The notes under the pieces were generated by a model that saw nothing but the letters and a program-made list of their open reading frames with translations, ran no database searches and was not told the DNA's origin. Made by a program: the position numbers and the translations under genes. A DNA stretch of 64,000 bases from Gracilibacillus oryzae (lineage in GTDB: Bacteria > Bacillota > Bacilli > Bacillales > Amphibacillaceae), in the NCBI RefSeq assembly GCF_009498735.1, contig NZ_ML762433.1, positions 1-64,000 on the forward strand, given 5' to 3'. Below are positions 22,286 to 59,164 of this stretch, piece after piece (position 1 is the stretch's first letter; the number at the start of each line of letters is the position of its first letter).

Positions 22286-22301
22286 GAGTTATTAACATAT
22301 T

Positions 22302-26200: not shown

Positions 26201-26658
26201 GTTGTAATATAGGTTCCATCTGAGAGGATATGATTTTTATCTCTTGTTTTTAGCCAAACATTGCGGTATATTCCCGCTCCAGAGTACCACCTGCTATTCG
26301 GGCTTTGATGAACTACTTTTAATACAATCTCATTATCTCCTGCTGCTAAATAATCTGTGATATCGTGTTCAAAGGAAGAATAGCCATACTTCCATTCCCC
26401 AACAAACTGTTTATTGACATAAAGTGTTGAGTCCATATAGACACCATCAAAGTATAATAGTACCTGTTTCTCTTCTATATCGTAAGTAAAGTTCTTTCGA
26501 TACCAGCCAATACTATTCTCGTACAGGTTTTGAGAATCATAAATCAACCAATCATGCGGAATATCAACAGGACTAAAGTTCAAAGATGTACTATCTTCTA
26601 TATCCAATGGACTTTTGGCGAATTCCCATTGATCATTAAATAATATTTTTTTGTTCAT
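23257..26658 (-). CDS. Large GH2 beta-galactosidase with C-terminal accessory domains
   Basis: Cytoplasmic GH2 enzyme of 1133 aa. The order is: sugar-binding domain (1-140), Ig-like domain (145-245), and TIM barrel (250-560) with acid/base Glu370 in SIGNEIYD and nucleophile Glu449 in YGSETAS. Then follow a DUF4982-type domain, an invasin/Big-like Ig domain (TADGTDLAFVEISMLDDEGN) and two C-terminal beta-sandwich modules of carbohydrate-binding type (about 850-1133). The ATG at 26658 is chosen because AAGGAG lies nine bases before it. Beta-galactosidase is the likeliest activity of this architecture, but other beta-glycosidase activities occur in GH2. It closes the operon after YesL and Nif3. 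Surface-type modules on a protein without a signal peptide are unusual. Confidence 0.88.
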   Translation of the reverse strand: MNKKILFNDQWEFAKSPLDIEDSTSLNFSPVDIPHDWLIYDSQNLYENSIGWYRKNFTYDIEEKQVLLYFDGVYMDSTLYVNKQFVGEWKYGYSSFEHDITDYLAAGDNEIVLKVVHQSPNSRWYSGAGIYRNVWLKTRDKNHILSDGTYITTYRKGEDWLVEVDTELSLYETATLTHTIFYKDELVVTTSQDINRGQLNTQQLKVNSPALWSMDEPNLYQIETTLLLGEEKIEVVTQNLGFRDIKLDPNEGFILNGEKMKLNGVCEHHDLGALGAAFNVNALKRRLYILKEMGVNAIRTAHNMPAKELMELADEMGFVIITEAFDMWERSKTPYDYARFFKEWAYEDVKSWVKRDRNHPSLLLWSIGNEIYDTHADERGQEITRKLVDYVREFDPKLNAQITIGSNYMPWENAQKCADIVKIAGYNYAEKYYHEHHEKHPDWVIYGSETASTVQSRGIYHFPFDRSILADDDEQCSALGNSATSWGAKSTEACITADRDAPFSLGTFIWTGFDYIGEPTPYHTKNSYLGQIDTATFPKDSYYIYQAAWTDYKKSPMVHIFPYWDFNKGQIIDVRVCSNAPKVELQFNGETIGTFDTDHKKGNQLTGWWKLQYTTGEIKAIAYDESNNIIATDSRKSFGDAKRIQLKTDKNTLTADGTDLAFVEISMLDDEGNLVENANNRVEVHVSGAGRLIGLDNGDSTDYDSYKGTSRRLFSGKLMAIIAAKLEPGNIKVEVASKNLKTEIIELQAMKTTEDLTGVSALAENQSIPCVMGNEGEIPLRKMEIISESGQTFDPAKTEMEVEVELYPANTSYSNIEWSVVTDTGVESNIAEIESHGHSATVKALGDGEFRVRCTSTNGTDKTKLLSELEFKATGLGTAYKDPYGFISAGLYDFSKGDLGNGNERGVATSRDGETQVGFYNIDFGSDGSDLITIPVFALSSEPYEMQIWEGIPNEEGSELLADVIYQKESKWNVYQEETYRLKRKLKGITSICFVLQNKVHIKGFSFEEQNRAYEQNDAINMDQIYGDSYQITENGVEGIGNNVTLEFNNFNFTDGANKLFICGRSPIDKNTIHVRFSGEEGDINQIVEFYFTDKYEVKEFDLDHISGIQKVSFVFLPGSNFDFGWFRFEYNE

Positions 26659-26686
26659 TAACGGATGCTCCTTCTCTTTATAATTG

Positions 26687-27370
26687 TTACGATTCTTTGA
26701 CAAAATTCAGTTTGACATCTTCAATGATTCCTTGCGTATTAGCCATTAGCAGCCATGCAATAACACTAAATAGAAGAAAGATAATAAAATCAGATGTAAA
26801 GAACATTAGGACTAATGTTAAAAATACAATACATATATTTCCGGACGTAATTTTAAATCGCATAAAAATATAATAAACGGATAGTCTGTAGACATCTCTT
26901 ATTCTGAATTGATAATGTGATGTAATAATAAGAGCATAAAATGTGAAAACAGACAGTATAAGTAAAGCAACAAGAAAAATACCATTAAGTATCTGATAAA
27001 ATAAAGTCGGATTCTGATTAAAATATTGAATATCAATCACTAAAATAAAGGCGACAATTAAGATCGGCAGCCATACTTTTAGCACATCTTTGAAATTATT
27101 TCTATACGCATGGATAAAATCAGCAACCGGCGCGACCTCTTTCTCTCTTACAAGTTTACTAAGCGCATGACACAATGCAGCAATTGCCGGGCCTGTCGGT
27201 ATTGATGCAATAAAATAAAAGATTGCATTCGATACACTAGGAATCAGTGTAATAAAAGCAATAAAAAATAGAATATTACTAGCAATAAATAGAACATTCA
27301 ATATCATTAACCAATAAACATAATTAGAAAAACGATAAAAACCACCTTGTGTAAATTGATTAGAATTCAT
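26687..27370 (-). CDS. yesL: YesL-family (DUF624) membrane protein, copy 2
   Basis: A 227-aa membrane protein with about six hydrophobic segments and the family motif IPTGPAIAALCHALSKLVREKE. It is 28 bp upstream of the GH2 start and 79 bp after the Nif3-like gene. Unlike the other two copies it has no kinase gene beside it, only transporter and hydrolase genes. Molecular role unknown. Confidence 0.9.
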   Translation of the reverse strand: MNSNQFTQGGFYRFSNYVYWLMILNVLFIASNILFFIAFITLIPSVSNAIFYFIASIPTGPAIAALCHALSKLVREKEVAPVADFIHAYRNNFKDVLKVWLPILIVAFILVIDIQYFNQNPTLFYQILNGIFLVALLILSVFTFYALIITSHYQFRIRDVYRLSVYYIFMRFKITSGNICIVFLTLVLMFFTSDFIIFLLFSVIAWLLMANTQGIIEDVKLNFVKES

Positions 27371-43687: not shown

Positions 43688-44704
43688 TTACGAGCGTGCG
43701 ATATCCAAAACTCTCCAGTATGATTGTTTCGGATTATGGTCTATATCAAATAAAAACGGCCAATTTTTTCTATTTCTAACAGGAAAGTTATCTAACCAAG
43801 TATAATCATCTGCTGCTCCCCAAAAGGTAACAGATGTAATGTATTCACTATAGTCCTTAAATAAATAAAAGATTTGTTCGTATCGTTCCGCTTGTCGAAT
43901 CATCATCTCTTCTGTTGGATATTTCAAATCAGTTCGTTTATCTTCATAATTGAAAACGGATACATCCAGTTCCGTAATATGTAACTGAACGTTAAGACTT
44001 GCATATCTCTCAATTGCTTTGCGAATATGGTCAAGAGATGGAGTCTCCAAATTCCAATGTGCCTGCAATCCAATTCCATGAATAGGAACATCTTTAGACT
44101 TTAGTGATTTAACTAACTTATATATTTTTTCCCGTTTTTCCGGAACAGATTCGTTATAATCATTATAGAACAACAAAGCCTCTGGATCTGCTTCATGCGC
44201 ATATAGGAATGCTTTTTCAATAAACTCCTCGCCAGCAATATCGAGCCATTTTGATGGTCGAAGAAACTCTCCAACTTTATCAGAAATAACCTCATTTACC
44301 ACATCCCAGGCATAAATATCTCCCTTATACCTAGTTATTATAGTATCAATGTGATCTTTCATTCTAGCTAAAAGTGTCTCGCGATCAACAAGGCTCCCAT
44401 CTTGACTATGAAACAACCATTCAGGTGTCTGATTGTGCCACACAAGTGTATGCCCTCTTACATTTAAACCGTTTTGTTTTGCAAATGAGATTAACTGATC
44501 CGCCTGGTCAAATGTGTATTGATTTTCTGATGGATGGAAGCTCAAAAATTTCATTTCATTTTCTGCTGTCACACTATTAAAATGGCGTGTGATTAACTCA
44601 TGTTGACTGATGATAGTCTTAGGATTTACCGCGGCACCAATTAAAAAGTGCTCCTTATAATCATGGTAAAGCTTTGGATAGTTGTTACTTTTCGTATTTT
44701 CCAT
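43688..44704 (-). CDS. Intracellular GH10 endo-1,4-beta-xylanase
   Basis: A 338-aa GH10 enzyme without signal peptide, as in the intracellular XynA2/IXT6 xylanases of Geobacillus, that cuts imported xylo-oligosaccharides. Acid/base Glu138 lies in DVVNEV and nucleophile Glu245 in HITELDVS; GHTLVWH is the conserved strand-3 segment. ATG at 44704 has AGGAGG nine bases before it; the ATG at 44713 lies too close. Followed by the GH43 gene. Confidence 0.94.
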   Translation of the reverse strand: MENTKSNNYPKLYHDYKEHFLIGAAVNPKTIISQHELITRHFNSVTAENEMKFLSFHPSENQYTFDQADQLISFAKQNGLNVRGHTLVWHNQTPEWLFHSQDGSLVDRETLLARMKDHIDTIITRYKGDIYAWDVVNEVISDKVGEFLRPSKWLDIAGEEFIEKAFLYAHEADPEALLFYNDYNESVPEKREKIYKLVKSLKSKDVPIHGIGLQAHWNLETPSLDHIRKAIERYASLNVQLHITELDVSVFNYEDKRTDLKYPTEEMMIRQAERYEQIFYLFKDYSEYITSVTFWGAADDYTWLDNFPVRNRKNWPFLFDIDHNPKQSYWRVLDIARS

Positions 44705-44770
44705 TGGAAGCATTCCTCCTATATAATTATTTTCTATTGAATTAATTTTATTTGATATAAAGTTAGAGTG

Positions 44771-44805
44771 AGTTTAGCACAATCTTATACTGACAACAAC
44801 CTGTT
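44771..44805 (-). promoter_or_regulatory. Promoter of xylanase-GH43 operon with ACAGGTTGTTG box
   Basis: Minus strand AACAGGTTGTTG (44794-44805) whose TTGTTG is the -35, a 17-bp spacer, and extended -10 TGCTAAACT (-10 hexamer 44771-44776). The same layout recurs at 59165 and 62397. Confidence 0.75.
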
Positions 44806-44816
44806 AATCACTTGGT

Positions 44817-44842
44817 ATTCACCTAGTAAATAATAGGTGAAT
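44817..44842 (-). terminator. Weak terminator after the lipid-anchored xylanase gene
   Basis: ATTCACCT (44817-44824) pairs with AGGTGAAT (44835-44842), 41 bp downstream of the stop at 44883. The stem is short and the T-tract poor. Confidence 0.5.
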
Positions 44843-44882
44843 TTATTTTCGAAAAACTTATGATAGCATTGACGTAGCCAGA

Positions 44883-46178
44883 TTAAGGTAATTTTGATGG
44901 ATCAACAACTCCCCAAAATGCTGGCTTTGCATGAAGCTGTTTATCAAATAATAGTGGTGCATTCGTTCGTTCAATTGGAAAGGAGTCAAGCCATGTATGG
45001 TCATCTGCAATACCCCAAAAAACAACACCGCTAAGAATTTCTTTGTTTTCTTTAAATGCTTCAAATAATTCATGATATCTTTCTGCTTGCTTCTGTAATA
45101 TTTCTTCAGGTATCTCCTCCCCATAATCACTGTGGTCATCCCAAGCATAAATGCTCATATCTAACTCAGTTACAAGATTATCAAGTCCAAGGTCACTAAA
45201 CATTTGCATCGATTCAATGACTGATGTAACAGTTGGTCCATAAAGATCAATATGTGTCTGATGTCCAACTCCATCAATAGGAACTCCCTTGTCCATTAAT
45301 TCTTTTACTAGCTTATAGAGATGGTCACGTTTAGCTGGATTGTCTGTACCATAGTCATTAATATAAAGTTTAATGTTTGGGCCACCTGCTTCACGTGCTG
45401 CTCGAAATGCTGTTTCAATAAAGTCTGGACCAGCTATTTTGTACCACTCACTCGCCCGCATCCCTTCAGGATCTCCTGGTTCAATTACTTCATTTACCAC
45501 GTCCCATGACTTTATATCATCCTTATATCGACTTACGATGGTTCGAACATGACTATCTAAACGATCTAGTAGTAATTTCTTGTTCTCTTCCTGTTTTACT
45601 GGATCGGTCTCATCCACCATCGGTTTACCTTCAGCATCTGTGAAAAACCAATTACCAACTTGAGTATGCCATACCAATGTATGAAATCTTAGTTCCATCC
45701 CATTAATTTTAGCAAACTCTACAATCTTATCTGTATTTTCCCAGTTGTATTTATCTTCAGAAGGATGAATAGCATCGGGCTTCATTACATTCTCTGCCAC
45801 CAGATAATTGACATGCTTTTTAAGAAGCTCAGACTTTAGCCCAGTGGTTTGAAACGGCTCTACCGCCGCTCCTATAGGGAAATACTCTGCATAAGCTGCG
45901 GCAAGAGATGGTATATCTTCCTCCACTGATGGTACAGGAGTTTCTTCGATACTATCATGCTCGTACTCTACAGCGTCTTCTGTTACCTGATCGTTAGTAT
46001 TATTGCTATTACTTTCACTTGAGTGATTTAACTCATTTTCTTCTTCACTGTTCTGATTTTCAGTATTTCTCACTAATGTTTCCGTAGATTGGCAACCGAT
46101 AATGAAAAATATCGAACATACCATTATTATTTTTATCATTAAGCGCTTACTCTTAGTTAAAATAATCTGCCTGTTCAT
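44883..46178 (-). CDS. Lipid-anchored GH10 endo-1,4-beta-xylanase
   Basis: A 431-aa GH10 enzyme with a lipoprotein signal (membrane segment 14-28, lipobox FIIGC, Cys29). A 60-residue Asn/Glu/Ser-rich linker (30-90) holds the catalytic domain away from the membrane. Acid/base Glu230 (DVVNEV) and nucleophile Glu339 (VTELDMS). It should attack xylan at the cell surface and supply oligosaccharides to the transporters. ATG 46178 with AAGGAGG. It follows the 11-kb cassette after a terminator hairpin; no promoter of the ACAGGTTGTTG type was found for it, so expression may come from read-through. Confidence 0.94.
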   Translation of the reverse strand: MNRQIILTKSKRLMIKIIMVCSIFFIIGCQSTETLVRNTENQNSEEENELNHSSESNSNNTNDQVTEDAVEYEHDSIEETPVPSVEEDIPSLAAAYAEYFPIGAAVEPFQTTGLKSELLKKHVNYLVAENVMKPDAIHPSEDKYNWENTDKIVEFAKINGMELRFHTLVWHTQVGNWFFTDAEGKPMVDETDPVKQEENKKLLLDRLDSHVRTIVSRYKDDIKSWDVVNEVIEPGDPEGMRASEWYKIAGPDFIETAFRAAREAGGPNIKLYINDYGTDNPAKRDHLYKLVKELMDKGVPIDGVGHQTHIDLYGPTVTSVIESMQMFSDLGLDNLVTELDMSIYAWDDHSDYGEEIPEEILQKQAERYHELFEAFKENKEILSGVVFWGIADDHTWLDSFPIERTNAPLLFDKQLHAKPAFWGVVDPSKLP

Positions 46179-46306: not shown

Positions 46307-47254
46307 CTATCCAACAATCCCTGAACGTTCTATACTTTCTACGAAATAACGTTGAACAAATAAATAGATGATAATAAGGGGCAAGATAGCTAGCAATATC
46401 CCCGTATCCTGTACCATACTCATATAGAATGGATCCTTATTTGTTGCAACCCCGCCTTCCAGTTGAATTGACAGGTTGTGTGGTAATGAAGACAATTGTG
46501 TTGCCATTACATTACTTGAAGTGAGGTATGTTGTCGTATAAAAACTGTCATTCCATTGCCAAACAAAGGAGAAAAGCATTACAGTTACTATCGCCGGTAT
46601 AGCATTTGGCAACATGATACGTAAAAATGTTTTTCCAACACCTGCTCCATCAATATATGCCGCTTCTTCAATAACTTTTGGGATGCCTCTAAAGAACTGT
46701 CGGAATATAAAAATATATAATCCTGCTTTAAGAGAGTTAGCTGTAATGGAAGTCAAAATAAATGGCCAATAAGAGTTTAGTAAATTTACAGAATCTCCTG
46801 TAAGTAGTGGAATTATACCCATTAGTGTAAAATCCTTCAGATTCATATATATAGGAATTAGAATCGTTGTTGGCGGAACTAAGATTGTTAATATAACACC
46901 AGCGAAAAGTAATTTACTTCCTTTGAAACTTAGTCTGGCAAATGCATAGCCAGCAAGTGCACAAGAAGCAGTAGTTAAAATCGTTGTTGTACTTGAAAGT
47001 AGAAATGTATTAAGTAAAGTCTCCCAATAATCCATAATTGAAATAGCATTTTTAAAATTTTCTAATGTGAAGTTTTCTGGAATCCATACGACGATTGGAG
47101 AATACAAGTCACTTTTATGTTTAATTGCAGTAGCTATTTTTTGTAGAATTGGATACAAAATTACAAACGACAACCCAGCAATTAAAACAAATCTTACAAT
47201 TGACCATAACCAACGCTTCCAGTTCTCAAAAGATAGTAATCGTGTCATTAACAT
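46307..47254 (-). CDS. Sugar ABC permease, MalG type
   Basis: CUT1 permease of 315 aa, six membrane segments, EAA loop EEAAYIDGAGVGKTFLRIML, ending FVESIERSGIVG. Last gene of the cassette; 14 bp after its MalF-type partner. ATG 47254 follows GGAGGG. Belongs to the second of two permease pairs in the same operon. Confidence 0.9.
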   Translation of the reverse strand: MLMTRLLSFENWKRWLWSIVRFVLIAGLSFVILYPILQKIATAIKHKSDLYSPIVVWIPENFTLENFKNAISIMDYWETLLNTFLLSSTTTILTTASCALAGYAFARLSFKGSKLLFAGVILTILVPPTTILIPIYMNLKDFTLMGIIPLLTGDSVNLLNSYWPFILTSITANSLKAGLYIFIFRQFFRGIPKVIEEAAYIDGAGVGKTFLRIMLPNAIPAIVTVMLFSFVWQWNDSFYTTTYLTSSNVMATQLSSLPHNLSIQLEGGVATNKDPFYMSMVQDTGILLAILPLIIIYLFVQRYFVESIERSGIVG

Positions 47255-47268: not shown

Positions 47269-48174
47269 CTATTCTTGATAAAAAACTTTTCTAGAAACGA
47301 AATACGTACTAATAACCAAGACTAACATTATTGCGATAAAATAAAGCCAAGCCATCGCAGAACTTAGGCCAAAGTCACTGTTGTCAAAACCCGTTGTCAT
47401 AACTAATTCAGTTATTGGGCTTCTGGAAAACGAGTCAATAATAGTATAAATCATATTTACTAAAATAAGAGGACTAACTAATGGAAATGTAATCTTCCAA
47501 AAAGCCTCATAACCAGTAGCACCCTCCATCTTTGCTGCTTCGTATAATTGAGGTGATACTGTTTGGATTCCGGCAAGAAAAATCAGAATCTGAACACCTG
47601 ACTGACTTACGATTTGATAGATCCGATCAACTGCACCAGTTAGATAGGCTACAATTGTTTCATTTACACCAGACCTTATCATGATTCTTTCAAGTTCAAA
47701 AGATCCAAAAGCGTTAACCAATCCACCAGAATTTGCATTCTGTTCATTTACAGCTTGTACTAAGCTTGTTGATTCCAAGTTTAAAATAACACCAGATGCT
47801 AGTATTACTGGGAGAAAGAAAATACCTCTAGCAAAAGTCCTGCCAAAGAACCTCTGATTAAGCAATACAGCCAAAAACAAACTAAATATAACGATTAATG
47901 GTATATTTACAATCATATTTATAATAGATTCAACTAGAGTTCTATTGAAATTTGTGTTAACTGTTAAAGCTTCAACATAATTCTTAAACCCAATAAATGT
48001 TATCTTCATTCCTTCCGAACTTGCTTGGATAGAACTAAAGCTGAATTTTAATGATGTTAACAACGGAATTAAAAAGAAGAATACAAAGCCGAGTAACCAA
48101 GGTAACACAAAGATTACACCCCAAAAGGCCTTTTGACCTTCATATGACTTGGGAGTCAAGCTGAATTTTGGCAT
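47269..48174 (-). CDS. Sugar ABC permease, MalF type
   Basis: CUT1 permease of 301 aa. An unusually long periplasmic loop (about residues 120-190, ESTSLVQAVNEQNANSGG...) lies between the second and third membrane segments. The EAA loop is YEAAKMEGATGYEAFWKITF. The ribosome site overlaps the end of the DUF5696 gene, 8 bp away. Two complete permease pairs in one operon suggest either two substrates or a non-transport role for one pair. Confidence 0.88.
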   Translation of the reverse strand: MPKFSLTPKSYEGQKAFWGVIFVLPWLLGFVFFFLIPLLTSLKFSFSSIQASSEGMKITFIGFKNYVEALTVNTNFNRTLVESIINMIVNIPLIVIFSLFLAVLLNQRFFGRTFARGIFFLPVILASGVILNLESTSLVQAVNEQNANSGGLVNAFGSFELERIMIRSGVNETIVAYLTGAVDRIYQIVSQSGVQILIFLAGIQTVSPQLYEAAKMEGATGYEAFWKITFPLVSPLILVNMIYTIIDSFSRSPITELVMTTGFDNSDFGLSSAMAWLYFIAIMLVLVISTYFVSRKVFYQE

Positions 48175-48182: not shown

Positions 48183-50726
48183 TCATTTCTCGCCTCCTGA
48201 CACGTAACCCATTGGTTCAATAGTATTACCTTCAATTGTTACTGACGATTGATTGTAATTCACTACTACAAACATATCGTTATCGTATACTGTTTTATAT
48301 ACTCCATCTTTCAGTTTTTCATGAGACTTAATCTGTTTATTTTCTACACTTTTAAGAATCGAGTTAACCTCATTGTAGATTTCCACCGCTTGTTCTAACC
48401 ATGATTCATAATTTACAGCGTATAAATAATCAAACTCCGTATCTTTTACGGTGTAATTAGACGCATTGATCCATTTAAAATGAACGCCTGAACCATACTC
48501 TAGACATTTCAAAACATACTCTTTCATATTTGTATAAGTAGAAAGGTTATACGGTAACCCAGTATAATCTACATATCCACGAATCACCATTTGATAGAAT
48601 GGCACCTCTTCATCTTCCAGTTTAAATCTACTATTTCCCATCGGGGCATCGGTAAGATTAGAAATGTATGGCAGCGCATAAGCATTCCCGCCTTCCGCCA
48701 TTATCTTTAAACCTTTATCTTGAATCATGGTAAAAGTATTTCTTGAAACAACTTTGGACTGAGAACGATATATTTGTTCGTTTTCCCTAAAATCACTATT
48801 TAGTTGATCAGCTAAATCCCGAAGTGAGATTCCCGCTGTTTCATATTCCTCTAGCTCACTAAGCATATCCTCGGTATATTCTTCTACTAATTTTGGAGAG
48901 ATAACATAAGACGGTGATTTTGTTCTATCCCTTCGATCAAGCGTAATATCTATTGGATATACGGCTGCAGGAACACCTCTTAGTGTTCTTGATGCTTCTG
49001 CTTCTATATTGAAACCAGAACCTGAATATGCTGATAAAAGAGCAACATCTGGGTATAAGCTTATATTATTTTCTTGAGTGAAAGTTATAAACTCTTTTAA
49101 CCCTCTACTTCCACCAATTGTGTTTTCAACTGATATATCGTCTGGCAGTTTGTGATTGATGCCTCCATTAAACCAACCTGAAAACTTTAAATTTATATTT
49201 TCAATTTCTTGTGTCTGTAACTGACTTAAAATATATTCCGCCTCATCAAATGTAGTTAAGGGTTCTATTGAACGGTATGGAACACCCATAAAATGCTTTT
49301 GTTTAGATATACTACCAACAAGATCTAAATAAAATGGCAGATTTTGCGTTTCATTTCCTTCTTGAACAAGTGGTAACTCCTTCCTGCTTACCAGATATTC
49401 CTGATACGATTTCGCCATTCCGGTATAGGATGCCTTATCTCCATTTAAAAATAAATACCTTACTGTATAATCTGTATTCATTGGCACATCTTGGAACTTA
49501 GGTAAAGTACGCTCTTGTTCATTCGCCTGTAAAGTTACCTCATCTTTGTTAATCACATAAAAACTTGGGTAAACATAGTTATAACTGTTTAATCTGCCAC
49601 TAATATCTGCATTAATATTAGCAACTGACGCCCCATTCTCAATGATTCCTAATAATGCGTCTTTTTCATAAATAAGGCCAAATACAGGTAATCTTACTTT
49701 CTGTTCCATCGAGTTAGATTCTGGAACTTTTAGAGCTAAATCCACTCCATACACTGACTGCTGATAGGATGGATATTCTGTTTTTCCATTGTTAAAATGA
49801 ATTAGAGCCCCAGATCCATCAGGGACAAACAGTGACCCTTGATCTTCCATCCCTCCTGCTCCAAAAAAATTCATAAGCGAGATCATATTGACAGGGTAGT
49901 CTTCAGGGTAATGAATGCTTGAAACTGGTACATTTACTACGAGACTATCCGTATCCAGAGTATACTCGATAGCAGCTTGAAAGATACGGGTGGAGGATTT
50001 TTCCTGGGTAAAGTTCAATTCTGACATATCCTGTTGCAAGTCTTCTTCCGTATAACCAGCATCGCCAAACGCTTGTAAGGCCTTCTCTAATTGAAGCCCA
50101 TTTAGAGCGCTATCATTCCTTTCATAAGCTGAAGTCTCTTGATTCTCTGTATAAGCGATCATCATGGATCGTTGTCCTGTTTTATCCAACTTACTTGATA
50201 ACTCATCAAACCGGGCTTTGCTTATCATAAGTGGTAAGTCATCTATCGATCTCTCAGTCTTACCAAATTGATAATAAACTTTAATCCCATTAGGAATTAT
50301 TTCGAATTTATACTGCTTATGGGCAACACTATCAGAGTAAGTATTAATAGAGTTTAACTGATTAAACTTATTATAAAAATCAATCTGCATTTGAGCAGAT
50401 AATAAGGATTTGTTTACACCAGTAGCTATCGTATCTGTCTCTCTTTCAGGCGGATTACTGTGCCAGATTTTCCCGCTGTTCTTATTAAGAATAGCTATAC
50501 TTCCTGTTTCCTCTGCAATAAACAATTGCAACTGGTCATTTTCTACGATTCCTTTCATACCAGGTAATCGATCGTCAGTAAATGCTGCCTGCAAAGGCTC
50601 TCCAGGTGTAATAAGATATATATTTTGCTCATTGTCTTCTCTCAAAGTCGATGAGGCCGAATTAGAACACCCTATAATAAAGAAAATAAAACTCATCAGC
50701 AATAGAACCATCTTCATTATGTTCAT
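48183..50726 (-). CDS. DUF5696 lipoprotein, possible TIM-barrel glycosidase
   Basis: An 847-aa lipoprotein (lipobox FIIGC, Cys20). Residues 40-330 look like the beta-sandwich that precedes many glycosidase barrels: QLFIAEETGSIAILNKNSGKIW, then strands and VPDGSGALIHFNNGK. Residues 465-760 read like a (beta/alpha)8 barrel: LDLVGSI, INLKFSGWFNGG (510-522), ISLYPDVALLSAY (555-567), LKIMAEGG (673-680), NLTDAPMGNSRF (690-701). The C-terminus VVVNYNQSSVTIEGNTI is like the beta domain closing such barrels. Asp560, Glu678 and Asp693 are possible catalytic residues. DUF5696 has no established activity that I know of; hydrolase function is inference. Located between the Yip1 gene and the second permease pair. 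Confidence 0.72.
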   Translation of the reverse strand: MNIMKMVLLLMSFIFFIIGCSNSASSTLREDNEQNIYLITPGEPLQAAFTDDRLPGMKGIVENDQLQLFIAEETGSIAILNKNSGKIWHSNPPERETDTIATGVNKSLLSAQMQIDFYNKFNQLNSINTYSDSVAHKQYKFEIIPNGIKVYYQFGKTERSIDDLPLMISKARFDELSSKLDKTGQRSMMIAYTENQETSAYERNDSALNGLQLEKALQAFGDAGYTEEDLQQDMSELNFTQEKSSTRIFQAAIEYTLDTDSLVVNVPVSSIHYPEDYPVNMISLMNFFGAGGMEDQGSLFVPDGSGALIHFNNGKTEYPSYQQSVYGVDLALKVPESNSMEQKVRLPVFGLIYEKDALLGIIENGASVANINADISGRLNSYNYVYPSFYVINKDEVTLQANEQERTLPKFQDVPMNTDYTVRYLFLNGDKASYTGMAKSYQEYLVSRKELPLVQEGNETQNLPFYLDLVGSISKQKHFMGVPYRSIEPLTTFDEAEYILSQLQTQEIENINLKFSGWFNGGINHKLPDDISVENTIGGSRGLKEFITFTQENNISLYPDVALLSAYSGSGFNIEAEASRTLRGVPAAVYPIDITLDRRDRTKSPSYVISPKLVEEYTEDMLSELEEYETAGISLRDLADQLNSDFRENEQIYRSQSKVVSRNTFTMIQDKGLKIMAEGGNAYALPYISNLTDAPMGNSRFKLEDEEVPFYQMVIRGYVDYTGLPYNLSTYTNMKEYVLKCLEYGSGVHFKWINASNYTVKDTEFDYLYAVNYESWLEQAVEIYNEVNSILKSVENKQIKSHEKLKDGVYKTVYDNDMFVVVNYNQSSVTIEGNTIEPMGYVSGGEK

Positions 50727-50742: not shown

Positions 50743-51369
50743 TTAATACCTAATGACAATCTCCTGATAAATCACATGAAAAAATGCAACTATTTGCTGA
50801 ATCAGACTGAAGAACAATAAACAGAGAAATGCCATAAAACCCATTGCCAAAATTGTAAGTAAGATCGTTCCTACTGACTTCATTGGAGCAAATTGATGTA
50901 CTGTCATGTTGCCAATAAACAGTAAGTAGAGAAACCACAGAAGTGCAAAGGTGCTTGAAAAGTAGTAAAATGTGGTCTCCTGCATTGAAACAAAGTTGCT
51001 TAACCAAATCCATGGAAAATTAATAATAATTAATGGAGTTAATGAAAAGCATGTAGATGTGAAAATTTCAATAAACTTCCCTTCCCCATCCATTAAAGTT
51101 GTAAGTGACCAATTCGCAACACACCAGAACAAAAGTGGAACAAGTACATATAAAATCTCTAGTAAACTATTCATATTATTAGGATTGTATATGTTAACCA
51201 AAAATCCACTATATTGTGTACTTAGAATGTTCGTCACAACCATCGAAAATAAAATAACAAAAGAAATAATTAGATTCATCCTTTTATTCATTTCATACTT
51301 CAAATCCCAAAAGCCATTAAATGGATGAACAATGAGATAAAACGGGTATTTAATCATCTCCCTATTCAA
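50743..51369 (-). CDS. Yip1-family membrane protein
   Basis: A 208-aa protein with about five membrane segments after a short N-terminus (IKYPFYLIVHPFNGFWDLKYE), as in bacterial Yip1-domain proteins. The start is TTG at 51369, with AAGGGG seven bases before it; this overlaps the NHL/TPR gene by 8 bp, so the two are translationally coupled. Function unknown. The polar motif HPFNGFWDLKYE faces the cytoplasm. Consistent neighbours (NHL/TPR protein, DUF5696) suggest a membrane complex. Confidence 0.78.
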   Translation of the reverse strand: MNREMIKYPFYLIVHPFNGFWDLKYEMNKRMNLIISFVILFSMVVTNILSTQYSGFLVNIYNPNNMNSLLEILYVLVPLLFWCVANWSLTTLMDGEGKFIEIFTSTCFSLTPLIIINFPWIWLSNFVSMQETTFYYFSSTFALLWFLYLLFIGNMTVHQFAPMKSVGTILLTILAMGFMAFLCLLFFSLIQQIVAFFHVIYQEIVIRY

Positions 51370-52822
51370 TAGCTATCCCCTTCTTTCTCTTCCTCATTTT
51401 TCTATATGTTCTGAATCCGATCATCCCGATGGCAGAAACCAATATAATTGTCATCAAAGCAGGAAAGTAGTCTCTTAACAATTCTTTACGATAAAGCAGA
51501 AATGCTTTCGAATAATTTTTTTGATCCAAACTTTGTTTAAAATTTTCCATTGCACCTTTGTAATCACCTTGTCTTAATAAAGCTTTGCCTATCCCGGTGT
51601 AGGCAAATTCAAGATTTGCATTCAATTCAATCGCTTTCTTGTACAGTTGAAACGCCTTTTCTTCATCTCCCTGATAGTAACTTCTGTTTGCCTCATTTAT
51701 TGTATGGCCATAGTCTGTTTCACGAAAAACGGTGATTTCGCCAACTGTTTTATCTAACACAAGAAAGCTATCATCAACACGTTCAATCGCAACTGGAGTA
51801 TGAAATAAGCCTATTTGATTCCCCAGCCCTCCAAAAACGTACATTAGATGACCATCGCCATTATAAGTAAATATTCGGCCTTGCTTGGAATCAAGCACAG
51901 AATATACCTCACTATCAGTGACATCAATATCAATTAGTCGAGAGGGTCCAACATCATGTGGATATCTAATGTCTCCAATAGGGCTGTAATACCCTTCTCT
52001 TCTTAGAATATCCGTACCCCTGGCATTTAGCTTTTTTATCTTATCACTGCTGTCATCACCATTAGTTGCATAAATGAAGCCTTCACTGTTTATATCAAGG
52101 TTAGTAAATTCTGTTGGTATGAACATCATCATCTGACTTCGTTGGGCCTGTGTGGACAACCGTTTCCACAGTAACTCAATCGGATCAATTTGTACGCGAT
52201 TAGCACCTATGAAGGTATTAAACTCACCATTGACGTTGAATTCCATAAAACCATCAAATACTCCTGCTGCCATAACATAAACTCTATCAGCATTATCAAC
52301 TACTACACGAATTGGCTGGAAAACGTAATCTTCTTTTAATAATTCAGATTCTGGTTTTTCGATGATACCCACTAAATGATAATGTTGATCAAGATGAACG
52401 ACTCGGTTGTTTCCCGTATCAGCAATGAAAATGTGCTTATCTTCTGTAACATATATCCCTTGTGGATTTGAAAATGTTTCTGTTTTATTCTCATTTTCAA
52501 AAGAATCAATGGCATCCAGGGCCTTGAATTCCTTATCCATAATAACTACACGATTATTGCCTGAATCCATTACATAGATCGTTTTATCTTCTGTTACGAA
52601 TAAATCGTTTGGTTCCTTAAACGCGCCAAATTTCAGATCATCGCCTTGAATTAAAGTAGCAGCCTTAAAGGCATCTGGAGCTGCAATGGAATCACCCCAG
52701 AACGAATAATTATAGGAAGGTACGTCAACGTGTGCATTTGCACTGATTGGCTTCATATGAATCATGAATGAGAATATCATGGAAACAACTAGTAATTTGC
52801 TGAATATCTTTATTCTATTCAC
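51362..52822 (-). CDS. Secreted NHL-repeat/TPR protein with C-terminal membrane anchor
   Basis: A 486-aa protein. A signal peptide (residues 1-29, ending ISANA) is followed by an NHL-type beta-propeller (about 55-375). Repeats include VTEDKTIYVMDSGNNRVVIMD and VTEDKHIFIADTGNNRVVHLD. Next come TPR helices (380-440, AFQLYKKAIELNANLEFAYTGIGKALL), a membrane segment (about 452-472) and a basic cytoplasmic tail (RKMRKRKKG). The propeller and TPR therefore lie outside the membrane. Such a domain pair is suited to protein or polysaccharide binding. Start GTG at 52822. Role unknown; it may organise the giant binding protein and permeases. Confidence 0.8.
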   Translation of the reverse strand: MNRIKIFSKLLVVSMIFSFMIHMKPISANAHVDVPSYNYSFWGDSIAAPDAFKAATLIQGDDLKFGAFKEPNDLFVTEDKTIYVMDSGNNRVVIMDKEFKALDAIDSFENENKTETFSNPQGIYVTEDKHIFIADTGNNRVVHLDQHYHLVGIIEKPESELLKEDYVFQPIRVVVDNADRVYVMAAGVFDGFMEFNVNGEFNTFIGANRVQIDPIELLWKRLSTQAQRSQMMMFIPTEFTNLDINSEGFIYATNGDDSSDKIKKLNARGTDILRREGYYSPIGDIRYPHDVGPSRLIDIDVTDSEVYSVLDSKQGRIFTYNGDGHLMYVFGGLGNQIGLFHTPVAIERVDDSFLVLDKTVGEITVFRETDYGHTINEANRSYYQGDEEKAFQLYKKAIELNANLEFAYTGIGKALLRQGDYKGAMENFKQSLDQKNYSKAFLLYRKELLRDYFPALMTIILVSAIGMIGFRTYRKMRKRKKGIAIE

Positions 52823-52840: not shown

Positions 52841-53722
52841 TTAATCTTTAATTCCTGAATTCGCCATCGTCTGCATTACGCTGCTTTGCGAAATAATAAA
52901 GAGAGTAATTGGTACGATCATTATGAATAATGCAACAGCCGCACCAACCCCTGCTCGAGCAATCCCCCCCTGTATAATTTGACCAAGCGCATAATGAAGT
53001 GTTTTTAAGTTCTCACTGTAAATAAAGTTACCTCCATCTGTTCCCCACAGCATTGGAAATTGAAGTATCATTAATGTTAACCAAGCAGGTTTTACATTAG
53101 GCATGACAATACTCCAGAATATTCGATATTCACTTGCTCCATCGACCTTCGCAGCTTCCAGCAATGCATTTGGCAGTTGTTCCATAAATTGTTTCATTAA
53201 AAATAATCCCAGAGGAAACGCTAATGATGGAACAATTATAGATGCCTGAGTATTTATCCAGCCTAACCAGGACATCACCATATAATTAGGAATTGCAGTT
53301 ACGTGTGGTGAAAACATTAATGATAATACAACAATTGAAAAAATCGCTTTAGATCCGAAAAATCGATATTTAGCAAGCGGATATGCTGCCGCTGATGCCA
53401 GTAAAATATGACCGACAGTACCTGCGATCGTTATAAATAATGTGTTGGTAATGTATCTAGATAAAGGCACCCAGGAATTCCCCATTAAAGAAACTAAATC
53501 AAAGAAATTATCTAAAGTCGGATTCCGCACAAAGAACCTTGGTGGAAAGATAAACAATTCATCTAATGGTTTAAATGCATTATTTACCGCATAAACTAGC
53601 GGCAGTGCCATGAACGCCCCAAATAATGCTAAAAACACGAACATCAGGAAGGTGACGGTAAACGACCGGTTAAGTTTTTTATTCATTCGAAAGAGTTTTA
53701 TTGTATTAGAAACCATTTTCAT
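52841..53722 (-). CDS. Sugar ABC permease, MalG type
   Basis: CUT1 permease of 293 aa with EAA loop LEAAKVDGASEYRIFWSIVM and six membrane segments. Its ATG overlaps the stop of the upstream permease gene by 4 bp (ATGA). First permease pair of the cassette; ends QTMANSGIKD. Confidence 0.91.
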   Translation of the reverse strand: MKMVSNTIKLFRMNKKLNRSFTVTFLMFVFLALFGAFMALPLVYAVNNAFKPLDELFIFPPRFFVRNPTLDNFFDLVSLMGNSWVPLSRYITNTLFITIAGTVGHILLASAAAYPLAKYRFFGSKAIFSIVVLSLMFSPHVTAIPNYMVMSWLGWINTQASIIVPSLAFPLGLFLMKQFMEQLPNALLEAAKVDGASEYRIFWSIVMPNVKPAWLTLMILQFPMLWGTDGGNFIYSENLKTLHYALGQIIQGGIARAGVGAAVALFIMIVPITLFIISQSSVMQTMANSGIKD

Positions 53723-54681
53723 GCACCTACCTTTCTTAGTAATCTCTGAACCACCATATTAGTACCAACCATTATAGTGAATAAAATCGTTGCAATTGCT
53801 GATGCGTATCCCATTTCAAAACGAATGGTTCCATAATCCATTAAGTGCGTTACAACAGTATGTGCAGCGTAGTTAACACTTGGGAAACCTGCAAGAGCGA
53901 TCGATATTTCGGCAACTGCAAATGATTGTGTAATTTGCATAACTGCCCCAAACATTAACATCGGTCTCATTGATGGTAAAGTTATAAACCATAGTTCCTG
54001 CCACCTGTTTTTAATTCCATCAATTGCTCCCGCCTCAATAAGAGAACGGTCAATTGTTTGCAAACCTGCGATAAAAGCAAGAAAACCGGCACCCAAACTT
54101 AGCCATAGTTGAACGATAATAACCACTGCCAGAATATACTGCTCATCTTTCAACCATTGAATTGGCTCTAAGATAAATCCAATGTTCATAAGTATCCCAT
54201 TCAGGTATCCATAGCTATCACCCGAAAAAATAATCAGCCAGATAAAGAATACGTTTCCTGAAATGGAAGGTGCATAGAACACCAGCGTCATAAATGCTCG
54301 GACCTTTGGCGAAAGTTCATTGATTATCCAAGCAAAGATAAAGCAAGCTATATAACTAATTGGTCCAGTTATGATCGCAAACATAAATGTATTCTTTAAT
54401 GCGATACTAAAAATATCGTCACTCAGAAATAATCGAGAATAATTCGACCACCCAATAAATCGTGGAAATTCCAGCATATTAAAGTAAGTAAAGCTAAGTC
54501 CGAACGATATAACTACCGGAATCACCGTAAATAATAGGAATATAATTAAATAGGGAGCCATCAATACGTAATAATGTATATTTTTTCTTAATTCCTTCAA
54601 AAAAGAGGCTATACGTGATCGCTTTTCTGGATAACCGGATTCCTCCAGAGGTTGTTCTATCGATTTTGATTGCACTTGCAT
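53719..54681 (-). CDS. Sugar ABC permease, MalF type
   Basis: CUT1 permease of 320 aa. A charged cytoplasmic N-terminus of about 40 residues, six membrane segments, and EAA loop IEAGAIDGIKNRWQELWFITL, in which the usual Ala is Gly. ATG at 54681 with AGGAGG close before it. It lies 12 bp after the giant binding-protein gene and is coupled to the MalG partner. Confidence 0.9.
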   Translation of the reverse strand: MQVQSKSIEQPLEESGYPEKRSRIASFLKELRKNIHYYVLMAPYLIIFLLFTVIPVVISFGLSFTYFNMLEFPRFIGWSNYSRLFLSDDIFSIALKNTFMFAIITGPISYIACFIFAWIINELSPKVRAFMTLVFYAPSISGNVFFIWLIIFSGDSYGYLNGILMNIGFILEPIQWLKDEQYILAVVIIVQLWLSLGAGFLAFIAGLQTIDRSLIEAGAIDGIKNRWQELWFITLPSMRPMLMFGAVMQITQSFAVAEISIALAGFPSVNYAAHTVVTHLMDYGTIRFEMGYASAIATILFTIMVGTNMVVQRLLRKVGA

Positions 54682-54693: not shown

Positions 54694-57597
54694 CTAATTC
54701 GGTAAATTAAATTCATCTCGTTTCACTTCAATTTCATCGTTGATATACAGAATATAATCTGACAATGCTTCTCTAGGATTTTCATTCGCATTTACCACTT
54801 TCCTAAACGCATTGTCCAAATGTCTACCTGTAAAGTAACCTCCTGGAACTTGTGGTATTCCTCTTACCCACTGCCATTGGCTCTCCAAATTGTTATAATC
54901 CTCGACTGGCCATGGTAATTCTTTTAGTGCTTCGATATTTGCCGTAGGATATCTCGCTGCCTCTCCCATTAAACCTTCCATTTCCCGACCGAAAGATATT
55001 TGAGTTTCTTTCTCTGTCCACCATTTCATAAACTCCCATGAAGAATTTTTGTCTATTGCATTCTCAAGCATCATTACTGCTGTTGTATGACTGGCAACTT
55101 CATGATTAATGCTGCTATCTTCTGTTACTGTTCCAGGAACCATAGTAAAATCCCACAACCCTTTGATTTCAGGAGCCAGTACAGTCAACATATTATAAGT
55201 AGTATAATCTGCTATACCAATCGGCATCTCTCCAACTCGGAAACGGTTAGGGAAGTCAGCCATTAAAGGAAACTTATAATTGGTGTAAAATTGGGTCCAT
55301 GTTTTGAATTGTTCCATAGATATTTCAGAGTCTAACGCACTAGATTTCTGATCATCTTCATAGAACTTACCTTCATTTTGGTACAATAGCATCGAAAAGG
55401 TTGCATTAGGTACCATATTCGTTTGTTCCTGTGCCTGTGGATCATCAATTGGCAAAAAGAACTCTAAATTATGTTTTTGTAAAACAGAAATCATATTGTA
55501 GACATCCTCCCAAGTTTCCGGGGGAGTTAAACCTAGTTCGTTCAGAATATCTTTACGATAGAACAACATCGGAAAAATTTGCTGTTCAGGCAGTGCATAT
55601 ACTCCACCATCAAACTCATAAGGTACTATTGCACTATCTCTAAATCGACTGGAAATCTCTTCATAATCATCAAACTCTGTCAAATCAGCAGCTGCATTTC
55701 TCATGGCATAATTAACAGGAATATCCTCACCAATCTGCAGTGCTACATCAGGACCTTCATCAGCTAATGTTGCTGGCAATAGAATATTTGGAGGTACTAA
55801 TCTTAAATTAACCGAAATGTTCGTTTCTGGAGTAAAAGTATCGTCAATCAGCGATTTTAAAACTTGTGCCTGGTCTCGTCCTGTGGTAATCCAGACTGTG
55901 ATAGAACGTTCTTTTTCTGATATATTACCGATGCTGTCATAATCTTCGGTATATGAAGCAAGAAGTCCACCAGTCTCATGAGCTGCAGTTTCTAAAATCG
56001 TTGCATGCGCATCCGGCAACTCTTGATCAGGTGAAGAAACGACTAAATAATCAAGTGTAAGAGGTTGTTCGCGAACCGTTAACATCCATGTTCCTAAACC
56101 ACCCACATTAACCTTAAAATTATCCAACCTTCTTGCAATCGTATCGGGATTCTCGACCATATCATTCAATTGTCTTACTAAAGAATGGAGAACCGCAACC
56201 TTATCACTTCGTTCCCCTGTCGACTTTTCTAAGTGCTCTGCAACGCTTTGAATCGTCTCTGCCTGCTCAGTAAATACATCCAGCATATCCGGAATACGTT
56301 TATCTAATTGATAATCTCGAAATGGATCAGGTGTATTTGATGTAATCATTAATATTTTTCTGTACATTTCGTTAAGCTCAAGTACACTCGATTCAATTGT
56401 CTGCAGCAAAGGAGCCATATCCCCAAGTGAAACCATCATTCGAATACGGTGAGTCCCTTCCGTCAAGTGATACAGAAACGGTTCTTCCTCACCAAGAACA
56501 TCCATTTCCCAATTCATATTATGGTTAAATCGAATCCTTTTCATTTCTTCAAATGGAGATTTTCCATCAATAGTGATACTTCTTGTTGCATATACTCCCT
56601 GAAGTTGATCTTGCTTACGTTTTAGTGCTATTTGATATAATCCATCTCTTTCTACCTCAAATTCCCATTCAATCCATTGACCTGGCAGCTTCCAATTCAA
56701 TCCTCCAATTGTATTCATCCTCAGTTTGGAAACATGATAAGGCATTACCGTTGGACTTGATCTATCTGACAAAGGATATAGCGTCGGAGACGATTTGCTA
56801 GTCGCTTCTTCTGCTTGTATAATGATGTATTGGTCTTTTGTCTTTTCAATCCCTTTAGCATTATATTCTTCTTTTACTTCTTCGTAAGGCAGAGGTAAAG
56901 CTTCCTGATATAACTCAATATAATCAATTGCCATTGGTTCTCGTAAAGATGACAGAGAAATTTGTTGAACGCCAGAAGCAAAATAAAAAGAATACGGTTC
57001 TTCATAATAACCTTCACTATCCATTAGTGGCTTTAGTATCCACTCAGGCCGTTCGATTTGCCTTGGTCTCAGTTCATTCCCTCTATCGTCCATCTGAATT
57101 TCTTCATAACTGTTATCCCAAATCCGATCAAATAACAATAACCCAGCACCGTTAAATGGGATTTGGTCATTTATTGCGAATTCCCTTTCAATAGCAGAGC
57201 TCTTTCCTTCCATAGGATAGTAATGAATTCTTATGTTATACATCCCTGGCTTGTCAATTCGTACATTCCACTTTATTGAGCCCTCTTCAGGTGTTACCAC
57301 TGCACTTCCATCTAAACCTTCATAGTTTTCTTCGACAAAAAATCCATCATTACTTGCACTAATAAAGTCCTCTCCTTCAATACGAACAATTTCATCTGGT
57401 CGCTTCTCAGAGGAATATATAATTTCATAAGTGTCATATCCATCTTCCTCCAAACCACTTGTAATAGCTTCAAAATCATCGATGGCTTTTACCTGACCTG
57501 GATTAGTTGAATCCAAAGGATAAAACCCCCAAATTAAAGCTAATATAATTACTATTACTAATAGGATTTTCAGCTTGGTATATCTTATTAATTTCAC
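54694..57597 (-). CDS. Giant membrane-anchored binding protein with carbohydrate-binding-like domains
   Basis: A 967-aa protein, about twice the usual size of a binding protein. A membrane segment (residues 7-27) without lipobox anchors it. Residues about 55-235 and 260-400 look like two beta-sandwich carbohydrate-binding modules of CBM6/35 type (VRIEGEDFISASNDG..., IIIQAEEATSKSS...); each begins with the acidic strand such modules share. A helical segment (400-530) leads to a family 1 solute-binding domain (about 560-960; SITVWITTGRDQ, GGVYALPEQQIFPMLFYRKD). The GTG at 57597 follows GGGGGGAG. It probably captures polymer chains and passes fragments to the permeases encoded next to it. Domain borders are estimates. 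Confidence 0.82.
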   Translation of the reverse strand: MKLIRYTKLKILLVIVIILALIWGFYPLDSTNPGQVKAIDDFEAITSGLEEDGYDTYEIIYSSEKRPDEIVRIEGEDFISASNDGFFVEENYEGLDGSAVVTPEEGSIKWNVRIDKPGMYNIRIHYYPMEGKSSAIEREFAINDQIPFNGAGLLLFDRIWDNSYEEIQMDDRGNELRPRQIERPEWILKPLMDSEGYYEEPYSFYFASGVQQISLSSLREPMAIDYIELYQEALPLPYEEVKEEYNAKGIEKTKDQYIIIQAEEATSKSSPTLYPLSDRSSPTVMPYHVSKLRMNTIGGLNWKLPGQWIEWEFEVERDGLYQIALKRKQDQLQGVYATRSITIDGKSPFEEMKRIRFNHNMNWEMDVLGEEEPFLYHLTEGTHRIRMMVSLGDMAPLLQTIESSVLELNEMYRKILMITSNTPDPFRDYQLDKRIPDMLDVFTEQAETIQSVAEHLEKSTGERSDKVAVLHSLVRQLNDMVENPDTIARRLDNFKVNVGGLGTWMLTVREQPLTLDYLVVSSPDQELPDAHATILETAAHETGGLLASYTEDYDSIGNISEKERSITVWITTGRDQAQVLKSLIDDTFTPETNISVNLRLVPPNILLPATLADEGPDVALQIGEDIPVNYAMRNAAADLTEFDDYEEISSRFRDSAIVPYEFDGGVYALPEQQIFPMLFYRKDILNELGLTPPETWEDVYNMISVLQKHNLEFFLPIDDPQAQEQTNMVPNATFSMLLYQNEGKFYEDDQKSSALDSEISMEQFKTWTQFYTNYKFPLMADFPNRFRVGEMPIGIADYTTYNMLTVLAPEIKGLWDFTMVPGTVTEDSSINHEVASHTTAVMMLENAIDKNSSWEFMKWWTEKETQISFGREMEGLMGEAARYPTANIEALKELPWPVEDYNNLESQWQWVRGIPQVPGGYFTGRHLDNAFRKVVNANENPREALSDYILYINDEIEVKRDEFNLPN

Positions 57598-57650
57598 TCT
57601 TCTCCCCCCTGTAGCAAAAGTTCGATGCACAAAGCTTAGTTACATTAATA

Positions 57651-57717: not shown

Positions 57718-59124
57718 TTAATCTCCCCAAACTTCATCAATGGCAGATTGGAATAGCGGTTTATATTTCTCAACAACTGTTGACACAGAGGTACCACTAC
57801 CTATTTCTGCAACAAAATCATAGTACCCTAAATTAGGATAAGTATTGTAATCCAGTACTAATAAGTTCTCTGAAACCATACGAAGATTGTTTATATCTTC
57901 TTCATTTGTATAATTAGTTTCATAACTTGCTTGACCTGGATAATCATAAATGGATTCGATATCATTAATTTTTTCCCAGATGTACATCAATTGCTCCGGA
58001 TTTTCTACTGACTTCGGAATAGTCAGCGCTTGTAATAAAGCTTCAGCTGAATAATACTCTGTAACACTCGGACCTTTAGGGAATGGTATGAATCCAATAT
58101 CATAATCAGGCATATCTTCCCTGAATCCACCAATTTCGTGATCAGCGCCTGCATACATTAATGTATTACCTTGACGGAAAAATTGGCCAGGTTCCGTCCA
58201 ATCTCCACCTTCAGTAGGTCTTGGTATCTGTTCCGTTACCAGCCGTGATTCAAATTCTAATGCTTCAATTGTTGCGGGATCATCAAGGTTTTGCTGATCT
58301 CCATTAACTAAATCTGTATTATTAGAATATAAAGCATGGATCATTAAGGATGAATTCGCCAAACCCCATATATTGAGTTTTCCATCATTATTTGTGTCTT
58401 TGTTTGCTTCCTTAGCTACTTCCAGAAAAGTCTCCCAATTCCAATTATCTTCCTCGACATATTCCTGAAGTGGTTTCATTCCTAATTGGTTCATTAGTGT
58501 ACGATTATAAAAGATACCTTGAGCTAAATTTTTATGATCCTCTGTAAATCCGTATCCCCGTCCTTCATATGTGTAAAGATTGTTGGTCATATTTTGGTTA
58601 AAAACATTTGTATTTTTCGTATACTCATCGATTGGCCATAATAAATCTTGCTTGACCAATGCAGGTACTGTATATGTTTTACCAAGTCTTACAATATCAC
58701 CTATTGGTTCACCAGCAATTAGAGAGGCAGTAACTTTCTCTTGATATTCGCCATAATCAATTGCCACATACTCTACCTGGAAATTATGTTTCTCCATTAG
58801 TGCCTCAAGATTTTCCTGCCGGAGTATATTATCTGGATTATCTTCTGGAATAGTCATATCCCACCAAGACACAATCTTTATTGTTTTTCCACCTAAATCA
58901 AAGTCCATTTCAGGCGTTTGATAGTAATCCACTTCAATTTCATCCTCAGCATTATCCTCTGTTCCATCCGTGTTATCTTCCGTATCGGTATTTTCAGTAT
59001 TTTCCGCTACACTTTCTTCCTTACCCTCTTCATTGTAACCGCTTACATCATTGCCGTTGCATGCTGCAAGAATTAAAACTAAAAAACATAGAAATAACGA
59101 TAATAACAATTTTTGTTTTCTCAT
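57718..59124 (-). CDS. Sugar-binding lipoprotein (first gene of cassette)
   Basis: A 468-aa extracellular binding protein; lipobox LILAAC around residues 18-23, then a highly acidic linker rich in Glu, Asp, Asn and Thr (about 25-65). The binding domain starts at GKTIKIVSWWDM. The ATG at 59124 has GAGGAGG upstream; the frame open to 59160 has no ribosome site. Its promoter carries the ACAGGTTGTTG box shared with xylanase and arabinofuranosidase genes, so a xylan-derived oligosaccharide is the likely ligand. It may supply either permease pair of the cassette. Confidence 0.9.
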   Translation of the reverse strand: MRKQKLLLSLFLCFLVLILAACNGNDVSGYNEEGKEESVAENTENTDTEDNTDGTEDNAEDEIEVDYYQTPEMDFDLGGKTIKIVSWWDMTIPEDNPDNILRQENLEALMEKHNFQVEYVAIDYGEYQEKVTASLIAGEPIGDIVRLGKTYTVPALVKQDLLWPIDEYTKNTNVFNQNMTNNLYTYEGRGYGFTEDHKNLAQGIFYNRTLMNQLGMKPLQEYVEEDNWNWETFLEVAKEANKDTNNDGKLNIWGLANSSLMIHALYSNNTDLVNGDQQNLDDPATIEALEFESRLVTEQIPRPTEGGDWTEPGQFFRQGNTLMYAGADHEIGGFREDMPDYDIGFIPFPKGPSVTEYYSAEALLQALTIPKSVENPEQLMYIWEKINDIESIYDYPGQASYETNYTNEEDINNLRMVSENLLVLDYNTYPNLGYYDFVAEIGSGTSVSTVVEKYKPLFQSAIDEVWGD

Positions 59125-59164
59125 GATCCTACTCCTCCTCTTTTTAATAAATAGGTACATTAAA

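Follow-up and report, generated by a model that had tools for sequence, protein, structure and literature searches.

DUF5696, a divergent sister family of the GH129 and GH101 glycosidases, is linked to an oligosaccharide import cassette in Bacillota

Introduction

The closest described relatives of the protein family studied here are the glycoside hydrolases of families GH129 and GH101. GH129 includes the alpha-N-acetylgalactosaminidase NagBb (PDB 5wzn) and the Zobellia 3,6-anhydro-D-galactosidase DagB (ZgGH129; 5opq), and GH101 comprises endo-alpha-N-acetylgalactosaminidases such as EngBF (2zxq) and an S. pneumoniae enzyme (5a55). The DagB study describes a beta-sandwich (residues 35–299), a TIM barrel (300–620), and an immunoglobulin-like domain (621–693), and equates the catalytic Asp435 of NagBb with Asp486 of DagB (PMC5698469). 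The same study reports that the NagBb acid/base is not conserved in DagB, yet the enzyme works, and that none of the DagB mutants of Asp486, Glu517, Glu531, or Asp202, a residue which the second monomer contributes, is active (PMC5698469). For the genes that surround our protein, the nearest counterparts are importers of the MalE/MalF/MalG type (CUT1), e.g., that of the beta-1,2-glucooligosaccharide-binding protein Lin1841.

Here we analyze a DUF5696 protein encoded by Gracilibacillus oryzae within a stretch of 64,000 nucleotides (contig NZ_ML762433.1, positions 1 to 64,000; hereafter the window). The word DUF5696 occurred in no paper of the literature searched, a body that stops short of subscription papers and preprints. 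Our analysis places the family beside GH129 and GH101 in fold and ancestry, and its genomic context points to a role in transport.

Results

The window encodes a lipoprotein with a GH129-like fold

The gene lies on the minus strand and encodes the following parts, all coordinates being those of the window.

48183–50726, minus strand: DUF5696 lipoprotein of 847 residues (ORF; PF18952, E = 2.7e-217; AlphaFold2 model, pLDDT 87.1, pTM 0.86)
49386–50555, minus strand: beta-sandwich domain at the N-terminus plus linker helix, residues 58–447, with D303 in a near-invariant PDGSG motif (model secondary structure; D303 in 97 of 100 rows)
48432–49334, minus strand: (beta/alpha) barrel domain, GH129/GH101-like, residues 465–765 (model and Foldseek)
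48186–48431, minus strand: C-terminal part with a helix and a small beta domain, residues 766–847 (PF18952 positions 544–612, which also match GH129 proteins)
48816–48818, minus strand: codon of D637, in the barrel domain
48693–48695, minus strand: codon of E678, in the barrel domain

The family profile PF18952 matched residues 227–841 over its entire length (profile positions 1–612 of 612), scoring 723.6 bits against a gathering cut-off of 25.6; neither NCBIfam nor PHROGs held a family matching the protein. Its N-terminus carries a lipoprotein signal, MNIMKMVLLLMSFIFFIIGCS, with the lipobox FIIGC. Across the family, a lipobox was found in at least 65 of 115 DUF5696 ORFs, a lower bound with ORF starts set mechanically; other members have a hydrophobic N-terminus without a lipobox.

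In an AlphaFold2 model built from 76 family sequences (mean pLDDT 87.1), strands extend to residue 428 and are followed by a helix at 434–447, the barrel at approximately 465–753, a long helix at 773–794, and C-terminal strands at 799–844. An earlier note, made from the DNA alone, had described an 847-residue surface lipoprotein in which a beta-sandwich is followed by a (beta/alpha)8-like repeat and a C-terminal beta domain; the ORF, family assignment, lipobox, and modeled domain order all agree with this description.

When the model was compared with the PDB using Foldseek, ranks 1–11 were all GH129 structures (5opq, 8rzk, and NagBb entries; E = 1.8e-33 to 1.4e-25). Ranks 12–19 and 21–27 (E = 8.3e-17 to 1.5e-13) held GH101 structures and fusions on the GH101 enzyme EngBF, together with two lattice-display entries (8a1a and 8a19) whose titles mention no enzyme. 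Ranks 20 and 29 were taken by a Flavonifractor plautii galactosaminidase, and barrels of alpha-glucosidase, alpha-amylase, and GH36 alpha-galactosidase appeared further down. The likeness to GH129 extends over nearly the full length of the protein (TM-score by target of 0.68–0.75), but identity in the structural alignments is 12–15%, and the rmsd of 6–8 Å over the whole length indicates that domain placement differs. GH101 proteins, the next-best fold matches, are much larger and share 8–10% identity with DUF5696. A chance fold match is ruled out by a Foldseek E-value of 1e-33 in combination with the sequence signals described below. The window protein matches GH129 in its fold and in a domain order like that of DagB. 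The expectation of a barrel akin to those of GH31, GH36, or GH101 was right in its broad grouping, GH101 included: the predicted fold does contain a TIM barrel, of the GH129/GH101 type, with GH129 closest.

DUF5696 is a separate family of common ancestry with GH129 and GH101

Sequence profiles detected the homology to GH129 independently of the structure model. A profile made from 14 DUF5696 proteins retrieved the GH129 chains of NagBb and DagB from the PDB (E = 6.3e-7 to 2.2e-6). Alignment of DUF5696 with six GH129 proteins by hhalign gave a probability of 94 (E = 9.6e-8), and use of the 76-row DUF5696 alignment gave a probability of 91 (E = 1e-6); two of the six full proteins in this GH129 set are 93% identical. 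Four GH129 proteins (L028, L029, L031, and L033) also exceeded the gathering score of PF18952, with E-values of 1.6e-10, 1.8e-6, 3e-6, and 1.9e-8, and positions 544–612 of the profile correspond to their C-terminal part. These four were chosen because PF18952 had matched them, and two are near copies. Two other weak DUF5696 matches were set aside: L030 is a GH101 protein, and L032 is a GH13-type protein matched in its barrel, probably through chance or general barrel similarity.

Neither the window protein nor any of 13 relatives matched the GH129 profile PF11308 at E ≤ 10, and we accordingly dropped plain GH129 membership for these 14 DUF5696 members. The Glyco_hydro_101 profile likewise matched none of the 14, and the likeness to GH101 is one of fold only. 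PF11308 itself was present in 5 of 200 Bacilli genomes and was not found in the genome of the window; it appeared in 0 of 299 genomes of the phylum sample, but the control genomes gave no match there either. Taken together, the GH129 sequence signals and the lack of a PF11308 match at E = 10 identify DUF5696 as a separate, divergent sister family of GH129 and GH101 that shares a common ancestry with them.

DUF5696 is a constant member of an import cassette

The genes surrounding DUF5696 in the window are listed below in order of transcription.

57718–59160, minus strand: second solute-binding lipoprotein (PF01547, E = 8.2e-24)
54694–57630, minus strand: giant solute-binding protein of 978 residues (Pfam, model, and fold matches)
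53719–54681, minus strand: ABC permease of pair B (PF00528, E = 3.6e-8)
52841–53722, minus strand: ABC permease of pair B (PF00528, E = 3e-18)
51362–52822, minus strand: NHL beta-propeller/TPR protein whose N-terminus is hydrophobic (signal peptide) and which has a single hydrophobic segment at its C-terminal end (Pfam; constant partner of DUF5696)
50743–51369, minus strand: Yip1-domain membrane protein (PF04893, E = 3.8e-11)
47269–48174, minus strand: ABC permease of pair A (PF00528, E = 7.5e-11)
46307–47254, minus strand: ABC permease of pair A (PF00528, E = 7.7e-12)
43688–46178, minus strand: two GH10 proteins (43688–44713 and 44883–46178), variable cargo (PF00331)

DUF5696 is transcribed between the Yip1 gene and permease pair A, and a GH43 gene follows the two GH10 genes. 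Only 8 nt separate the DUF5696 stop codon from the start codon of the first pair A permease (47269–48174). The two permease pairs, giant binding protein, and xylanases that had been noted from the sequence are borne out by Pfam, which finds permeases, a solute-binding protein, two GH10 proteins, and one GH43 protein adjoining DUF5696. Further along the window lie a gene for a GH95 protein (19977–22298) and one for a GH2-like protein (23257–26703) whose CBM6-like end scores below the Pfam cut-off.

We modeled the giant binding protein from 61 of the 77 fitting homologues (pLDDT 86.7). The model comprises beta-sandwiches at approximately 82–241 and 268–401, a helical part at 405–520, and then a MalE-type oligosaccharide-binding domain whose best fold matches include binders of beta-1,2-glucooligosaccharides and cycloisomaltooligosaccharides. 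No significant Pfam family was found in the N-terminal 560 residues (best E = 0.02). The cassette resembles CUT1 importers in its PF00528 permeases and MalE-type domain, but differs from them in having two permease pairs per operon, additional NHL/TPR, Yip1, and DUF5696 subunits, and an extra N-terminal part of 550 residues in its binding protein.

This arrangement was conserved well beyond the window. We compared 80 near loci (L034–L113), which are the best 80 of 580 confirmed DUF5696 loci and hence biased toward close relatives, with 35 further loci, three of them from the window's own genome; set A2 leaves out five of the 80 near loci with odd ORF lengths. Among same-strand genes no more than seven ORFs away, DUF5696 had the NHL protein as a neighbor at 78 of the 80 near loci and all 35 further loci, permeases at 79 of 80 and 35 of 35, and a binding protein at 77 of 80 and 31 of 35, with some loci running into contig ends. 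The order is also tight: 112 of 117 NHL ORFs stand directly upstream of DUF5696, and a permease starts within 300 nt downstream of DUF5696 in 112 of 116 cases. By this constant linkage to permeases and a binding protein, DUF5696 belongs among the components of oligosaccharide ABC importers.

The partnership with the NHL protein was also close at the level of genomes. DUF5696 was matched at E = 1e-144 or better in 37 of 398 genomes of the phylum Bacillota, and the NHL protein was present in 38, namely all 37 of these and one other, where a partial match was found in an assembly of 250 contigs (Fisher p ≈ 2e-51, with genomes that are not independent). In the class Bacilli, matches of E = 5e-53 or better occurred in 24 of 299 genomes, and the Pfam cut-off was passed in 26, two of these via GH129 proteins. 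In the window, NHL and Yip1 are encoded by separate genes; at many distant loci the two are fused into one. Each of the five long NHL proteins that were scanned contained propeller repeats and a Yip1 match (one below the Pfam cut-off), and their TPR matches were weak, exceeding the cut-off in one of the five.

Four DUF5696 genes are present in the G. oryzae genome. One of them (L163, contig C17) is split over two ORFs, 2416–2850 and 2887–4794; it may be a decaying gene, and the NHL protein and permeases still lie beside it. A DUF5696 gene in another genome (L183, 5602–7893, genome G216) is broken near profile position 512–517, with cassette genes around it.

The enzymes beside the cassette varied. 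Among 92 neighboring proteins scanned, we counted GH10 (24), GH43 (8), GH5 (4), GH29 (fucosidase; 3), GH38 (3), GH30 (2), and GH95 (1), as recorded in the first 25 of 56 families found. These 92 are a subset of 250 candidates on the same strand and of 290–1000 residues, at most two per locus, taken nearest first. The near-perfect co-occurrence with the import cassette, in combination with varied flanking hydrolases, argues for a role in transport: a subunit that stays constant as the cargo enzymes change would be expected of a transporter part rather than of an enzyme dedicated to a single linkage. Of the functional evidence in this study, genome context is the strongest.

Within the same literature scope as above, we found no paper joining DUF5696, Yip1, NHL, and a solute-binding protein, and none on importers of this kind with two permease pairs. 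A search for Yip1 with xylan ABC permeases in Paenibacillus yielded no Yip1 among the matches listed, and one for a pseudoenzyme glycoside hydrolase with an ABC transporter yielded none relevant by title among the matches listed.

The catalytic pair of GH129 appears to be lost in most DUF5696 proteins

Residue conservation was counted over 100 distinct DUF5696 rows, a subset of 149 sequences (L034–L097 being thinned to one in four) from the 168 ORFs found; the 101-row alignment had held the window protein twice, also as L002, and the duplicate was removed. The most conserved residues were N727 (100 rows), W518 (99), R654 (99), E743 (98), and D303 (97), followed by D329 (96), D705 (94), N681 (93), and D645 (90). 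According to the strand limits of the model, W518, D645, R654, N681, D705, and N727 fall after barrel strands, which is the substrate side of such barrels, and E743 falls just before the last barrel strand. The modeled position of these six residues would be compatible with a retained binding cleft and a displaced active site alike. The earlier note had taken LKFSGWFNGG, LYPDVALL, IMAEGGN, and NLTDAP to be strand-end motifs located where glycosidase barrels hold substrate and catalytic residues; the model does place barrel strands there (511–516, 556–561, 674–678, and 690–692), but the acids named are not the conserved ones. Its candidates D560, E678, and D693 are Asp in 70, Glu in 25, and Asp in 34 of the 100 rows, and all three fail as conserved acids of the family.

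We next located the GH129 catalytic positions. Glu478, which we take to be the acid/base of NagBb, aligns with a Glu that all six GH129 proteins share, and hhalign sets E678 of the window protein (IMAEGGN) on this GH129 Glu (GSETGN). The nucleophile column of GH129 falls opposite a gap between L635 and R636 in the hhalign alignment, with D637 two residues past it. GH129 and DUF5696 share an acid nine residues after the nucleophile (E444 in NagBb, D521 in L119, D645 in the window protein), and counting back from D645 puts the nucleophile position at R636, with D637 as the next residue. With the register uncertain by one, position 636 is Asp in 3 of 101 rows (window protein counted twice) and position 637 in 64 of 100, the window protein having R636 and D637. 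The motif HLDGW of NagBb corresponds to KFSGW in the window protein, and Asp is not among the seven commonest residues of that DUF5696 column.

The GH129 pair appears not to be conserved across DUF5696. The window protein retains the acid/base Glu, but just 25 of the 100 rows carry it; 16 rows combine Asp at 636 or 637 with Glu at 678. If any acid is allowed at both places, the count is 30 rows, which weighs against a non-catalytic reading. By entropy, columns 636, 637, and 678 rank 161, 111, and 220 in conservation among 303 barrel columns, and 169, 122, and 217 in the 72 rows below 80% identity. As controls, both catalytic positions were kept in all six GH129 proteins, and the two Glu that are presumably catalytic in GH10 were both kept in 45 of 45 GH10 proteins encoded at the DUF5696 loci. 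With a mean pairwise identity of 0.53, the GH10 set has diverged less than DUF5696 (0.35), which makes this contrast indicative rather than exact. To judge by these columns, the canonical retaining pair has probably been lost in most DUF5696 members, and their likeliest job is a non-catalytic one. The proposal that DUF5696 is an unrecognised glycoside hydrolase stands for fold and ancestry, as seen in the model, Foldseek, and profiles; as a statement on activity, the proposal lacks support and is probably wrong for most of the family.

A possible, if rather doubtful, alternative is that DUF5696 proteins are active glycosidases or transglycosylases with a relocated active site, in which conserved acids such as D645, D705, D303, or E743 replace the GH129 pair. 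These four are kept in 90, 94, 97, and 98 of 100 rows, and the six conserved polar or aromatic residues after barrel strands are as expected of an enzyme with moved catalytic residues. DagB is a precedent for activity without the NagBb acid/base (PMC5698469). However, the D645 column is acidic in GH129 too, where it lies outside the catalytic pair, and this residue may be structural; E743 would, by its place before the last strand, face away from the usual active site; and the cassette adjoins hydrolases for different glycans.

On a further, improbable reading, ordinary retaining catalysis of the GH129 type persists in the window protein and its close clade, D637 being the nucleophile and E678 the acid/base, and decay is confined to outlying branches. 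The hhalign placement of E678 agrees with this, as does the Asp at 637 in 72 of 76 near-clade sequences, but position 678 in the same 76 is Glu in 28, Asp in 18, Asn in 17, and Ser in 7, and D637 misses the nucleophile position both by hhalign and by the count from D645. Given its retained E678 and the D637 beside the nucleophile position, the window protein could be active even if its relatives are not.

Discussion

From the fold, ancestry, anchoring signal, and cassette observed in this analysis, we infer a glycan-binding role for DUF5696. The explanation that we favor, with somewhat better than even confidence, is that DUF5696 is a membrane-anchored, mostly non-catalytic subunit with a GH129 fold that binds glycans within a large oligosaccharide importer. 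Alternatively, the protein could serve importer assembly as a scaffold, or act as a sensor, and make no carbohydrate contact of its own. This would account for the near-strict partnership with the NHL/TPR-Yip1 protein and for the propeller-type repeats in that partner, but is very improbable in light of the conserved aromatic and polar residues that persist after the strands of a sugar-enzyme barrel.

DUF5696 is an extracytoplasmic, membrane-held protein that has kept the three-domain architecture of its GH129/GH101 ancestry, as the model, fold search, and sequence profiles show. Gene order and co-occurrence make it a fixed subunit of the import cassette, beside the giant binding protein, two permease pairs, the membrane-anchored NHL/TPR protein, and the Yip1 protein. 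The old substrate cleft, with the conserved residues W518, N681, N727, R654, D645, and D705, may bind a glycan, and DUF5696 may then present this glycan to the giant binding protein and permeases, or dock them.

In its widest form, this proposal makes DUF5696 a class of pseudoglycosidases and an obligate subunit of an undescribed composite importer, in which a giant binding protein and two permease pairs are combined with a membrane platform of NHL/TPR-Yip1, and through which Bacillota would take up long hemicellulose and other oligosaccharides; we consider the case for this wider claim to be evenly balanced. A family that carried only a DUF name is now placed, by fold and sequence, beside the mucin- and carrageenan-acting enzymes of GH129 and GH101, and the evidence argues against calling it simply an enzyme. 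The constancy of the cassette suggests that many Bacillota import plant and other glycans via a machine larger than a binding protein with two permeases, with a repurposed glycosidase inside.
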